Shown: positions 19,690-26,200 of the stretch, piece by piece
How positions within the stretch are numbered: position 1 is the stretch's first letter
How the letters are laid out: every line of letters begins with the position of its first letter
Origin: an uncultured Mediterranea sp.
Lineage (GTDB): Bacteria; Bacteroidota; Bacteroidia; Bacteroidales; Bacteroidaceae
Length of the DNA: 64,000 nt
NCBI GenBank assembly: GCA_945641355.1
Contig: CALZEQ010000008.1
Coordinates: forward strand, 1-64,000
Direction of reading: 5' to 3'
The notes under the pieces: model-generated
What the model saw: the letters and a program-made list of their open reading frames with translations, nothing else
What the model was told of the DNA's origin: nothing
The model's database searches: none
Program-made: the position numbers and the translations under genes

Positions 19690-20145
19690 CTACTCCCTGT
19701 TCATCAGCCGCTGCTCGGCCATCTGCTCATACTTGGTACCCGGACGGCCATAGTTGGCATAAGGGTAGATGGAGATGCCTCCACGCGGCGTAAAGATGCC
19801 GGTCACTTCTATGTACTTGGGATCCATCAGACGTATCAGGTCGTTCAGGATGATGTTGACACAGTCCTCGTGAAAAGCACCGTGGTTGCGAAAGCTGAAA
19901 AGATAGAGTTTCAGACTTTTGCTCTCCACCATTTTCACATCGGGGATGTAGCAGATACGTATCTCTGCAAAGTCCGGCTGTCCTGTAATGGGGCACAAGC
20001 TGGTAAATTCCGGACAATTGAAACGTACCCAATAGTCGCGTCCGGGGTGCTTGTTGTCAAACGCTTCCAGCACCTCGGGCGCGTAGTCTTGTTTGTACTC
20101 GGTCTTCCGACCCAGCAAAGTCAGTTGTTCTTTCAGTTCTGCCAT
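19690..20145 (-). CDS. queF: NADPH-dependent 7-cyano-7-deazaguanine reductase
   Basis: QueF reduces preQ0 to preQ1 in queuosine biosynthesis. The protein is 151 aa, the short unimodular form. The catalytic cysteine is C51 in [16 protein letters not shown], and the NADPH/substrate region [24 protein letters not shown] is intact. It follows queC by 21 nt, the last gene of a queT-queC-queF unit. Confidence 0.96.
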
Positions 20146-20166: not shown

Positions 20167-20829
20167 TCACTCCTTGCCTACGCGCTTCAGGTATTGCTCC
20201 AAGCCCTGCCGGCGCAACCTGCACGCGGGACAATGGCCGCAACCGTCTCCCTGAATGCCGTTGTAGCACGTCAGCGTGTCGTGCCGCACCAGGTCGAGCA
20301 CGCCTAGCTCGTCAGCCAGTGCCCATGTATCGGCCTTGTCAATCCACATCAGCGGCGTATGAATCACGAACTGCTCGTCCATAGCCAGGTTCAGCGTGAC
20401 ATTCAGTGACTTGATGAAGGCATCCCGGCAGTCGGGATAGCCGCTGAAGTCCGTCTGCGAAACACCCGTCACGATGTGGTTGATTCCCCGCTCGCGGGCA
20501 TAGACGGCAGCAATGCTCAGAAAGAAGAGATTGCGCCCCGGCACAAAGGTGTTTGGATAATGGTCGGCCGGCTTCTCCTGATCCATCACCATGGACGTGT
20601 CCGTCAGTGAATTGTGTCCCAACCGTCCGATGAACGATACATCCATCACTTCAAATTCCACCTCGGCCTTGCGGGCAATCTCCCTGGCCAGTTCCACCTC
20701 TTTGCTATGCTTCTGACCGTATATGAAGCTGAGTGCGTACACCTTCTTGAAAGCACGCTTCGCCCAAAAGAGGCACGTGGTAGAATCCTGTCCACCACTG
20801 AATACGACCAATGCTGTTTCCTTGTTCAT
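20167..20829 (-). CDS. queC: 7-cyano-7-deazaguanine synthase
   Basis: QueC converts 7-carboxy-7-deazaguanine to preQ0 using ATP and ammonia. The protein is 220 aa. It shows the PP-loop motif [13 protein letters not shown] near the N-terminus and the C-terminal zinc cluster [19 protein letters not shown]. It lies 48 nt after the transporter gene and 21 nt before queF; a TACTTTTA element in the gap could be a weak internal promoter. Confidence 0.96.
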
Positions 20830-20877: not shown

Positions 20878-21558
20878 TCACATATCGCCGATGTGCCATA
20901 TCTTGTATGACACCCCCTCATCGTACACGTCGCACCCGTCTATACGCTTCACAGCACGTACTACCCGAATGGTGACCGGCAATATCAGCACCTCGTAAAG
21001 CGACTTCAGGCAGACTTGTGCAAGCATCATCGAAAGGAGTTCAGGCACTCCGATGATGCCGCCGAAGGCAATCGGAAAGAAGAGCAGCGAGTCGGCCGTC
21101 TCACCTGCCACCGTCGACCATATAGCCCGTGCGGCAAACCGCCGGCCACCATCCTTCAGCTTCATGCGACTCATGACGTAAGCGTTCAGGAACGAACCTG
21201 CCAGAAAGGCAATCAGGCTGGCCACTACAATACGGGGAGCCATGCTGAAAATGTAATTGAAGTGTGCTTCCCCCTCCCAGAAAGGGGCGGCGGGTAATGC
21301 CACGGCTATCAGTCCGAGCATCACCACCAGAAAGTTCATCAAGAAGCCGCTCCATATCACCAGACGGGCCTTGCGATAGCCCCACACCTCGGAGATGCAG
21401 TCGTTGATGATGTAGGAGACGGGAAATACCAGCAGACCGGCTGTCACTGTCAGTCCGCCCAGTTGGATAACTTTGGTTTCAAGGAGATTGGCTGCAATCA
21501 GACATACGTTGAAGAGTATGCCCAGCAGCATGAATGATACAGATACTTGTTGCTTCAT
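20878..21558 (-). CDS. yhhQ: queuosine precursor transporter (YhhQ/VUT family)
   Basis: A 226-aa integral membrane protein with about six hydrophobic helices, of the YhhQ (DUF165/VUT) family that imports queuosine precursors such as preQ0/preQ1. Family landmarks: IQLGGLTVTAGLLVFPVSYIINDCISEVWGYRKAR near the first helices, FLAGSFLNAYVMSRMK, and ETADSLLFFPIAFGG. It is the first gene of the queuosine unit, directly preceded by a leader that folds like a preQ1-I riboswitch whose 3' strand contains the ribosome-binding site, which gives a direct logic for feedback on uptake. Confidence 0.9.
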   Translation of the reverse strand: MKQQVSVSFMLLGILFNVCLIAANLLETKVIQLGGLTVTAGLLVFPVSYIINDCISEVWGYRKARLVIWSGFLMNFLVVMLGLIAVALPAAPFWEGEAHFNYIFSMAPRIVVASLIAFLAGSFLNAYVMSRMKLKDGGRRFAARAIWSTVAGETADSLLFFPIAFGGIIGVPELLSMMLAQVCLKSLYEVLILPVTIRVVRAVKRIDGCDVYDEGVSYKIWHIGDM

Positions 21559-21560
21559 AT

Positions 21561-21594
21561 TTCCTGTTTTTTACGTGGTGTTCTGGAATACACG
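21561..21594 (-). promoter_or_regulatory. preQ1-I-like riboswitch in the yhhQ leader
   Basis: Read on the minus strand from 21594: P1 CGTG, loop TATTCCAGAACA, an unpaired C just before the P1 3' strand CACG, then an A-rich tail TAAAAAA and CAGGAA. The tail segment CAGG pairs with CCAG of the loop (C-G, C-G, A-A, G-C) to form the pseudoknot P2, and this strand is also the ribosome-binding site, followed after two bases by the ATG. In known preQ1-I aptamers the C preceding P1' pairs with the ligand; it is C21578 (complement) here. Layout closely follows the T. tengcongensis translational aptamer. P1 is only 4 bp. Context (queuosine transporter) agrees. Confidence 0.72.
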
Positions 21595-21613
21595 GCTGTC
21601 TGCAAGAGACAGC
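21595..21613 (-). other. leader hairpin immediately upstream of the preQ1-I-like element
   Basis: GCTGTCT and AGACAGC form a perfect 7-bp stem with loop CTTGC. It abuts the P1 stem of the riboswitch candidate and could stack on it or insulate it. Confidence 0.5.
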
Positions 21614-21630: not shown

Positions 21631-21638
21631 CAAAGGTA
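21631..21638 (-). promoter_or_regulatory. -7 element of the queuosine unit
   Basis: The complement reads TACCTTTG, perfect. Transcription would begin near 21624, so the leader is about 65 nt and consists almost wholly of the hairpin and the riboswitch candidate. Confidence 0.6.
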
Positions 21639-21718
21639 TATAAAACTTGCGAGATTCTATACCGATGAGGCAAAGAATCTGTTTTCTTCTGCGAAGATAG
21701 TCTTTCTGGAGCGGTACC

Positions 21719-23227: not shown

Positions 23228-26200
23228 ATGAAACTTCAAAAGGGATTATACGAAAATTTAATCACCAACGAACTGTTGCAGGACATTGAACAAGCCAGCC
23301 ACAATGGTTTTTTATGCCAAAAAGATGATATTGACAATGCAGAATCACCGTCAATGCTTGCTGAACATATCAATAAATTACTCCGCAACAGATTATCTGA
23401 CGAGAATCTAACGGCGGAAGAGCGGAAACTGTTTGTCAATCGTCTGATTGATTTTCTTGGAGAAGACAGTGAAGAAAAGATAGCAGATGAAAAGAGCATA
23501 TTAGCTGCAGTGTTCTCACGTGAAGAGGCTGCCACTATGAATGCCACAAACAGGGAGATAACCAGACCCTTGACAGGATTCAGAACGAGCAATCTGTTCA
23601 CTGGTGGGCAATGTGATATTCCATTGAATACGGAAATCAGCCGCGACATCCAAACGTCAGACAGCATATATTTGATAGTATCATTCTTGAAGTTATCGGG
23701 AATCAATCTGATTTTCGACGACTTGAAACGTTTTTGTAGCAATCCCGAACATAAATTACGTATCATTACTACTACCTATTGCGGAGTCACAGAGGCAAAA
23801 GCTGTGAAACGCCTCTCTGCGCTGCCCAATGCCGAAATCCGGATTTCTTACAATACAAGGATCGAACGGCTTCATGCCAAAGCCTATATCTTCGAACGGA
23901 ACTCAGGATTTAGTACTGCATATATCGGTTCGTCCAACCTCTCAGAGTCTGCACAGACAGATGGTCTGGAATGGAATATACGAGTGACTAATGTAGAGAA
24001 TCCGCACATCATTAAAACGGCAATGGCTACCTTCGACCGCTATTGGAATAGCAATAATTTCGAGGATTTTCGAATAGGTGGCATAGAGAAATTCTATCGC
24101 GAGGCAGATAAAGAACGGCAACACAAAGGAGTGCTGACGACTATATTTGCCAAATATACGATTTTACCCCACCAGAAAGAAATACTTGACAAACTAGCCA
24201 TCCAACGTGATAATGGAATCCAGCGTAATCTCATTGTGGCAGCTACGGGAACAGGTAAGACTGTAATCTCAGCCTTCGACTATAAAAATCTCTGTAATAC
24301 CCATCCGCAAGCCAACCGTATTCTGTTCGTGGCCCATCGACAGGAAATCTTGAATCAGGCTCTGCTGACCTATCGCAGCGTGCTGATGGATAGTAATTTT
24401 GGCGAGCTATGGGTAGGTAGCCAAAGACCTGTTTCAGGGATTGATCATCTGTTTGTTTCCGTACAAACCTTCAATTCCCAATTCAATGAGGTATTCAGTT
24501 CTCTTCCCTCAGGCTACTATCACTACATTGTAATTGACGAATGTCACCATAGTGTAGCTGACAGTTATCGCAAAATCCTATCCCACTTCAGGCCTGAACT
24601 GCTCATCGGTCTTACTGCTACGCCTGAACGCATGGACGGCGAGAGTCTGTTGCCGGATTTTGACAATTCCATCAGTGCAGAAATCCGGCTTACAGCGGCT
24701 CTTAATGCCGGGCTGCTCACTCCTTTCCAATATCTGTGCATAAGCGACAATACCGACCTACGGGACGAGGACTTGATGCAAGGCAATAAATATATCGCAA
24801 CAAGACTGACCGAAAGATTGTGCAACAGCGAACGGGTCGCACTCATCATCGAGAGGTTAAGATATTATTTGCCTGATGAAACTAAATGTAAAGCCCTTGG
24901 ATTCTGCTCCACCAAAGAACATGCCCGATACATGGCTGAACAATTTCGTTCTTATGGTTTTCAGGCAGATTATCTTACATCCGACCGTAGTGATGCACGA
25001 AACTCGCTCAACAAAAAACTGGCTAAAGGAGAAATCAACTACCTGTTTGTAGTGGATATTTTCAATGAAGGTGTCGATATACCCGAGGTAGACACCGTTC
25101 TGTTCCTGCGCCCAACAGAATCGCTCACCATTTTTCTACAACAATTAGAACGTGGATTGCGACTCTCGCCTGGAAAGCAACTGCTCACCGTATTCGATTT
25201 CGTAGCACAATTGAACCAGAAATACGATTTCACCAGCCGTTTTCGCAGCTTGATGGTCCGACAGGACAAAAGCGTAATCGACCAAGTGAAACATGGCTTT
25301 ACCCTACTTCCAAACGGGTGCTCCATACACATGGAAGAGAAGGCACAGCAGTATGTACTTGAAAACATCAAGTCAGCCATATACAACCGACGGCGCCTCG
25401 TTCAGGAACTCAGTATGTACGATCACCAGCCAACCCTCAAAGAGTTTATTAGTAACAACGGACAGGATATCAGACTGATATACAAGACAGGCTGCTGGAC
25501 CAGTCTGAAACGATAGGCCGGTTTTTGTAACTACATCGATGATGATTGCACTAAACGTTACGAAAAGGGGCTTTCAAATCTCCTGCATACCAATAGCACA
25601 TCATACTTACACTTCATACAGCATACATTAAACCATCTCCATGAGCCATCCTTCGACCATCAGGAGGATGTCTATGCAACGATGTTTTATTATACACTCT
25701 ATAACGACAAGATTGACAAGAGCAGATTTCATACCAGAGAGGAGGCCATAGCTACCCTGAAGCACTATCCTCTCTTTATTTCCGAAATAAGGGAACTTGT
25801 AGATTATCAGCTGTCGCAAATATCGGTCAAGACCTTCCCTGTCGGCCAAGGTTTGCCTGATACATTAGAACAATATGGTTGCTATACCCGAGAAGAAGTG
25901 TTCACAATCTTTGGACGTCAGACCGTCAATAAGCGAATGCAAGGCAGCGTAGCGGGAGTGTTCAATATTGAAGAATTGAATACAGAACTCTTCTTTGTTA
26001 CGCTGAACAAATCTGATAAAGACTTTTCTCCTTCGACTCAATACGATGACTACGTAGTCAGTGAATACAAATTCCACTGGCAATCACAAAATTCAGACTC
26101 ACACAAAGGAAGGGGTCTTCGTTTCGTGGAGCAAGCTAAAAACAAGAAGAAGTTTCTCCTGTTCGTAAGAGAGTATAAGCGGGACGGCTTTGGCAATACA

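Follow-up and report, generated by a model that had tools for sequence, protein, structure and literature searches.

Class I preQ1 riboswitches are described as the smallest natural aptamer known (PMC10622847). They are divided into types, and our comparison with the riboswitches of T. tengcongensis (Tte) and E. coli (Eco) rests on the descriptions given in passages of two papers, PMC11625349 and PMC10622847. Type II is represented by Tte and by the B. subtilis (Bsu) riboswitch, and by the Rfam family RF00522; type III is that of E. coli and type I that of C. antarcticum, which has two ligands. The wild-type Eco RNA is a 36-mer and that of Tte a 33-mer; an Eco RNA engineered as a 30-mer binds preQ1 with a KD of 51.9 nM (PMC10622847). 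Bacteroidota are listed among the type I phyla, and the distribution of type II is called similar (PMC11625349), so that preQ1-I riboswitches in this phylum are not new as such. A study proposing two RNA regulogs for 11 Bacteroidaceae describes preQ1 riboswitches as mostly limited to Firmicutes (PMC3766115). In the abstracts and main-text passages of the preQ1-I literature that we consulted, none was found to describe the element in Bacteroides; the main texts of two B. thetaiotaomicron maps (PMC7366714, PMC10994844) do not contain 'preQ1', and a text search of a gut survey (PMC11089507) for the same word gave none, though the survey is indexed with one mention.

A class I-type pseudoknot at the start of yhhQ

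The window, i.e. the whole stretch of 64,000 nucleotides analysed here, carries on its minus strand an H-type pseudoknot of the class I preQ1 type, located in the yhhQ leader at 21594-21561. From P1 to the fourth base of the 3′ strand of P2 the element is 32 bases long (21594-21563) and, from 21594 to 21556, the minus strand reads CGTG, TATT, CCAG, AACA, C, CACG, TAAAAAA, CAGG, AAAT, ATG. P1 is made of CGTG (21591..21594) and CACG (21574..21577), two strands that covary in relatives. For P2, in which covariation is also found, the 5′ strand is TTCCAG (21583..21588, with CCAG at 21586-21583) and the 3′ strand CAGGAA (21561..21566, with CAGG at 21566-21563). Between P1 and P2 runs the A-rich tail L3, TAAAAAA (21567..21573), which occupies positions -15 to -9 from the yhhQ start codon (ATG, 21558-21556). 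Directly before the 3′ strand of P1 is found AC (A21579-C21578), the type II signature (PMC11625349), and by analogy C21578 is expected to be the base that pairs with the ligand.

The pieces named in the original prediction, C21578 included, were all found on the minus strand where it had put them, with two amendments. It had proposed a pseudoknot between CCAG and CAGG: the P2 helix is there, with pairs G21583-C21566, C21585-G21564 and C21586-G21563, but A21584 opposes A21565, an A.A step that had been overlooked and that leaves the pairing incomplete. It had also set CAGG two bases ahead of the ATG, whereas the actual gap is 4 nt (AAAT). U21587-A21562 and U21588-A21561 could extend P2, both of these outer T-A pairs being without covariation support. 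Upstream, the predicted 7-bp hairpin, hereafter P0 (GCTGTCT-CTTGC-AGACAGC, 21595..21613), is present and lies flush against P1, and so is the -7-like promoter box, TATACCTTTG (21631..21640). Because this box ends 36 nt before P1, the yhhQ leader is probably about 65-70 nt long, the start site being deduced from the box. In the minimum-energy fold, calculated without pseudoknots, P1 is not formed and the region pairs with the AUG instead; this hairpin was considered as a ligand-free state and then dropped, as by eye it looks impossible in copies of the CTTG type.

Family searches bore out that the downstream genes form a queuosine operon, yhhQ-queC-queF. On the minus strand follow the controlled gene yhhQ, encoding a queuosine precursor transporter (20878..21558; Pfam Vut_1, E 1.5e-50; TIGR00697), queC, encoding 7-cyano-7-deazaguanine synthase (20167..20829), and queF, encoding a preQ1 synthase of the QueF-II kind (19690..20145), the maker of the presumed ligand. 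TGT is present in the genome of the window. The association with queuosine genes extends to relatives, where the element also precedes queC and, in one case (L246, from G362), a QueD-like PTPS gene (PF01242, E 2.6e-32); this last copy is 29 nt long and has AGAG/CTCT as P1. Elsewhere in the window, 23228-25516 (+) encodes a protein with PLD-nuclease and helicase parts, for which the best-matching PADLOC model is that of a type IV methyl-directed restriction enzyme (E 1.3e-157).

Detection and distribution within Bacteroidales

At Rfam cut-offs, the whole window gave no match. In a 261-base slice around the element, RF00522 was the best of 4,227 Rfam families, with an end-to-end alignment, at a score of 15.9 bits. 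In this check, suggested by the original prediction, the expected family came out on top but well below its gathering cut-off of 39 bits. Over the entire genome the element was second of six RF00522 matches (E 1.98), which is unremarkable; since a single-sequence score was at noise level in the genome, orthologues had to decide. The RF00522 cut-off was passed in none of 149 genomes of the order, while the B. subtilis control passes; none of the matches at E 0.05 in these genomes is the yhhQ-leader element, and on 20 loci searched at E up to 10 no locus matched. As a detector within Bacteroidales, RF00522 was therefore rejected as too weak.

We built two models of our own. R1 has 19 rows, drawn from the 30 yhhQ loci fetched first, and excludes L028, L030 and L035, because MAFFT misaligned their CTTG-type L1; the three were recovered afterwards by covariance search. 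At E ≤0.1 it matched 111 of the 393 genomes searched in the order, with chance accounting for many of the weak matches. Examination of 61 of the 132 listed R1 places found 43 before yhhQ, 7 before queC, 2 (L067 and L078) with queC 86 nt downstream, and 9 due to chance. The latter (L077, L079, L085, L086, L087, L089, L091, L093 and L095) are weak matches, without a queuosine gene by BLAST and with a mostly broken element. Among the remaining places, those of G066, G254, G140 and G324 are real elements. With R2, a model that includes the window sequence itself, the element is the single strong match in its genome (E 1.1e-11, the next being at 1.78). When R2 was run over the class and phylum, 13 genomes of other orders matched weakly (best E 2.4e-4), none of the matches lying before yhhQ, queC or queF by BLAST; at E 0.001, six genomes matched, all of the order.

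In the yhhQ loci fetched first, the best 30 from a search of 61 genomes in which 43 had a match, the element stands directly before the ATG in 30/30 (29 relatives and the genome of the window). In named genomes, at least 119 stretches matched the exact pattern and 80 were given as loci. Assignment by script, among the matches listed, placed 72 of these before yhhQ and 3 before queC, and left 5 unassigned because the ORF was cut at the end of the locus or, in L178, because the script chose a longer one in a different frame. The element-bearing names, again among the matches listed, are Bacteroides fragilis, B. faecis, B. fluxus, Phocaeicola, Parabacteroides and Tannerella forsythia, to which are added Odoribacter, Barnesiella, Draconibacterium and Paludibacter.

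A wider sample of 257 genomes of the order contains 41 close copies of yhhQ (E 6.4e-64 or better), one of which (G274) has no readable leader; 38 of the 40 readable leaders carry the element, the two at odds being L261, which is without it, and L263, which has a degenerate form. L101, L103, L262 and L264-L269 were scored by eye or by a looser scan, and we counted as carriers L264 and L266 (CC for AC, P2 ATTG/CAAT), L267, which has an insert in L3, as well as L084 and L088, in which the last pair of P2 is broken. Among nine more distant yhhQ copies, L052 (50% identical) has the element and the other eight, which belong to a distant subfamily, do not (0/8).

Two further groups of sequences were noticed. 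On two MAG contigs recorded as Mailhella (L113 and L186) the same element precedes yhhQ, with a queF-like ORF nearby and, by reading alone, tilS- and DegP-like ORFs as neighbours; this is likely a transfer of the switch and its genes out of Bacteroidales, or else a shared misbinning. A distinct, type I-like element (GACAG..ATC CTGTC TATAAA..) occurs in other genomes of the order (L251, L252, L254, L259 and L106); where scored, the first four reach 23-27 bits with RF00522, while L106 was found by scan. In L251 a queC-like ORF follows 109 nt after it.

Covariation and sequence variation

Alignment A3, fitted to the P1 model, contains 60 rows from 64 sources (L100, L101, L103 and L106 gave no match). 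In P1, 100% of 231 cells are paired over 58 distinct rows, with 7 both-side changes at two pairs and 0 one-sided changes. Neither the paired share nor the covariation score was reached in 500 shuffles; 24 of the 500 had at least as many doubly changed pairs (2), and P1 slid by +2 still pairs 73.6% of cells. For P2, shuffles are lenient, the sequences being related. Over 82 distinct elements, pair 3 is standard in 80 (maximum of 78 in 1000 shuffles) and pair 4 in 79 (maximum of 78 in 1000); pair 1 is invariant. Pair 2, standard in 57/82 with a shuffle maximum of 57, is not above shuffles, nor are pairs 5 and 6. Compensatory change thus supports P1, in few lineages, and P2 at pairs 3 and 4. The original prediction had made its case depend on covariation of both helices among orthologues and on persistence of the ligand-pairing C: the two helices covary, and AC is kept in 60/60 rows of A3. 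Outside that alignment, L264 and L266 have, by eye, CC instead of AC before the 3′ strand of P1.

A wider view of the variation is given by 157 distinct elements, which had to show a perfect P1 of 4 bp, AC and an A-rich L3 to pass the filter and are therefore no independent evidence for the universal presence of these three features. P1 is CGTG/CACG in 146, CGAG/CTCG in 4, AGTG/CACT in 4 and AGAG/CTCT in 3, so that its covariation rests on few lineages. L3, which the parse required to be A-rich, is TAAAAAA in 140/157 and TTAAAAA in 12/157. P2 is CTTG/CAAG in 94, CTAG/CAGG in 30, CCAG/CAGG in 23 and CCAG/CAAG (with one broken pair) in 3; of 7 elements with other forms, 2 are due to a script misregister (L084 and L088, which have GTTG, not GTAG). 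The A.A step at pair 2 belongs to the CAG/TAG type of P2 and is seen in 25/82 distinct elements (23 once the register of L084 and L088 is corrected). Further forms of P2 are ATTG/CAAT (L264, L266) and CTAG/CTAG (L101).

Outside the filter fall, among others, L094, the long-P1 forms L101 (GGGAG/CTCCC), L103 (CGGGTG/CACCCG) and L267 (TGCGAG/CTCGCA), together with L262 (TGAG/CTCG), L264 and L266. A P1 of 4 bp goes with an L3 of 7-9 nt, one of 5 bp with 13 nt (L101) and one of 6 bp with 12 nt (L103); a longer P1 having a longer L3 is what is needed for the tail to cross the P1 groove. In L267, the 6-bp P1 and a long L3 insert are followed by CAAG-AAT-ATG.

Size of the aptamer and the P0 hairpin

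The 157 elements are 29 nt (3 elements), 30 nt (62), 31 nt (29), 32 nt (46), 33 nt (14) or 34 nt (3) long. Such a size can suffice, since the engineered 30-nt class I RNA binds preQ1. That the aptamers of the order are smaller than those known is a lead, boundaries having possibly been cut differently in PMC10622847.

A hairpin with 5 or more base pairs, perfect and flush at P1, is present in 64 of 156 leaders, against a mean of 8.4 and a maximum of 14 in dinucleotide shuffles; after thinning of similar leaders it is present in 41/107 (shuffles: mean 5.4, maximum 10). Stems ending 10-30 nt from P1 average 10.4 of 156, which is near background. Stems ending 1 or 2 nt from P1 are also frequent (48 and 34 of 156, partly the same stems in another register), and exact flushness of P0 is thus a tendency. 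Its sequence is highly variable, except for a form with a GAATA loop that is common in Bacteroides. Of the 45 leaders that lack a stem of at least 4 bp at 0 or 1 nt from P1, 15 carry a -7-like box ≤15 nt from P1, which would place the start of the RNA almost at P1, and 30 do not.

Proposed action and alternative explanations

Sequence and covariation establish a 4-bp P1 and a P2, together with the C that follows an A, an L3 rich in adenines and a position against the start codons of queuosine genes. The reading that we favour, with a probability of about 80%, is that of a cis-acting preQ1 riboswitch, class I and type II-like, in a miniature form of the order, the pseudoknot of which would close the start region of yhhQ. 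According to this model, preQ1, the product of QueF from the same operon, would pair with C21578 and stack between P1 and P2. The closed pseudoknot would tie up L3 and the 3′ strand of P2 (about -15 to -3) and so block the 30S subunit at the AUG; plentiful preQ1 would then lead to less uptake and synthesis of precursor. A flush P0 probably stacks on the short P1.

The element is real and exceeds chance, because it is found at the yhhQ start in 30/30 loci and because its helices covary. A chance resemblance, which the noise-level RF00522 score in one genome might have suggested, is refuted by these observations and ill agrees with the uniqueness of the strong R2 match; it hardly deserves further consideration. 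That the fold is instead a translational operator bound by a protein, or a ligand-free RNA structure that has come to look like preQ1-I by convergence, is very improbable: the near invariance of P1 and L3 among aligned Bacteroides copies could reflect protein recognition, but three kinds of queuosine gene (yhhQ, queC and queD-like), a geometry of class I and the two pocket bases, A and C, all fit preQ1-I. The nature of the ligand leaves somewhat more latitude. The same fold might respond physiologically to preQ0, or another 7-deazaguanine, rather than to preQ1, given that it is found before queC, whose product makes preQ0, and before members of a family of transporters for both preQ0 and preQ1 (preQ0 being imported by YhhQ), and that the type II Tte RNA favours preQ1 over preQ0 only 17-fold (PMC10622847). 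Against this, Tte and Eco members do prefer preQ1 (PMC10622847), and queF, which converts preQ0 to preQ1, sits in the operon of the window; we regard this variant as unlikely, though the least so of the alternatives.

Slightly less probable still is a ligand-binding fold that acts on transcription or mRNA decay and not on initiation of translation. The Bsu type II riboswitch does work by transcription termination (PMC11625349), and a few aptamers are located away from the start codon of queC or yhhQ: besides the two at 86 nt (L067, L078), there are copies 81 nt (L152), 56 nt (L180) and about 67 nt (L154, start uncertain) upstream. However, the fourth base of the 3′ strand of P2 lies 0-6 nt from the next ATG in 151 of the 157 elements (3-5 nt in 127), which leaves no room for a terminator.

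The original prediction had taken CAGG for a ribosome-binding site, a doubtful role for which no support was found: Shine-Dalgarno (SD) sequences are not recognised by the ribosomes of Bacteroidia (PMC9976891), and the place is taken by CAAG in 99 of the 157 elements and by CAGG in 53. As SD sequences are not used in this phylum, the block would probably bear on the A-rich initiation region and on accessibility of the start codon rather than on an SD. In F. johnsoniae, adenines at -3, -6, -12 and -13, together with low secondary structure, promote initiation (PMC6847099). A is found at both -12 and -13 in 133 of 153 elements with a close ATG, and both positions fall within L3 in 147; in the window, 55 ORFs of at least 200 aa, with starts that were not curated, have an A fraction of 0.53 at -12 and 0.44 at -13. 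A tentative extension of the riboswitch model, to which we would give clearly less than even odds, is that L3 doubles as the A-rich -12/-13 determinant that ribosomes of the Bacteroidota prefer to an SD, docking of its adenines into P1 upon ligand binding being the off switch. Under this extension, natural aptamers as short as 29 nt may also rank with the smallest known, their short P1 being propped by a flush P0. The adenines at -12/-13 may also be only a by-product of spacing, because folding of class I itself needs L3 adenines. Repression without real or full burial of an SD has a precedent in type I, and unfolding of Tte by S1 is ligand-dependent (both PMC11625349).

Should the riboswitch model be right, a textbook 'SD burial' scheme cannot apply as it stands, and the element would offer a compact natural test of translational riboswitch action in a phylum with ribosomes that take no account of SD sequences. 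Uptake of queuosine precursors in a dominant gut group appears, from leader sequences, to be under ligand control, since nearly all readable close yhhQ leaders carry the element, which the RF00522 cut-off missed in all 149 genomes.

Comparison with known types

What is new here is the aptamer length (29-34 nt, most often 30), a P0 of variable sequence that is often flush at P1, and the failure of RF00522 to pass its cut-off in any of the 149 genomes. The type II alignment of the subtype paper by McCown et al. (2014) may already include copies from the order.

With type I the element shares the class I fold, but type I has UC before the 3′ strand of P1, where the yhhQ-leader element has AC. As for type III, the E. 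coli riboswitch also controls yhhQ, is very small, has AC before the 3′ strand of P1 and forms P2 at the start of the gene (PMC10622847). However, type III has UU after the 5′ strand of P1 (PMC11625349) and an AAGG tail, whereas the elements of the order have UA or UG there in 152/157 and UU in only 5, with CAAG or CAGG as tail; the window itself has UA after CGTG, and CAGG.

The architecture recognised by the original prediction as preQ1-I-like, with P1, AC, A-rich L3 and pseudoknot all present, is closest to class I type II (PMC11625349). The two have in common the H-type pseudoknot, AC, the A-rich L3 and the association with queuosine genes, and in Tte, too, only two of the four steps of P2 are canonical (PMC11625349). 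Compared with type II, including the Tte 33-mer, the elements of the order usually have a 4-bp P1, a 7-nt L3 and a length of 29-34 nt, many copies have a hairpin flush at P1, no use of an SD is expected, and all fall below the RF00522 cut-off in 149/149 genomes.
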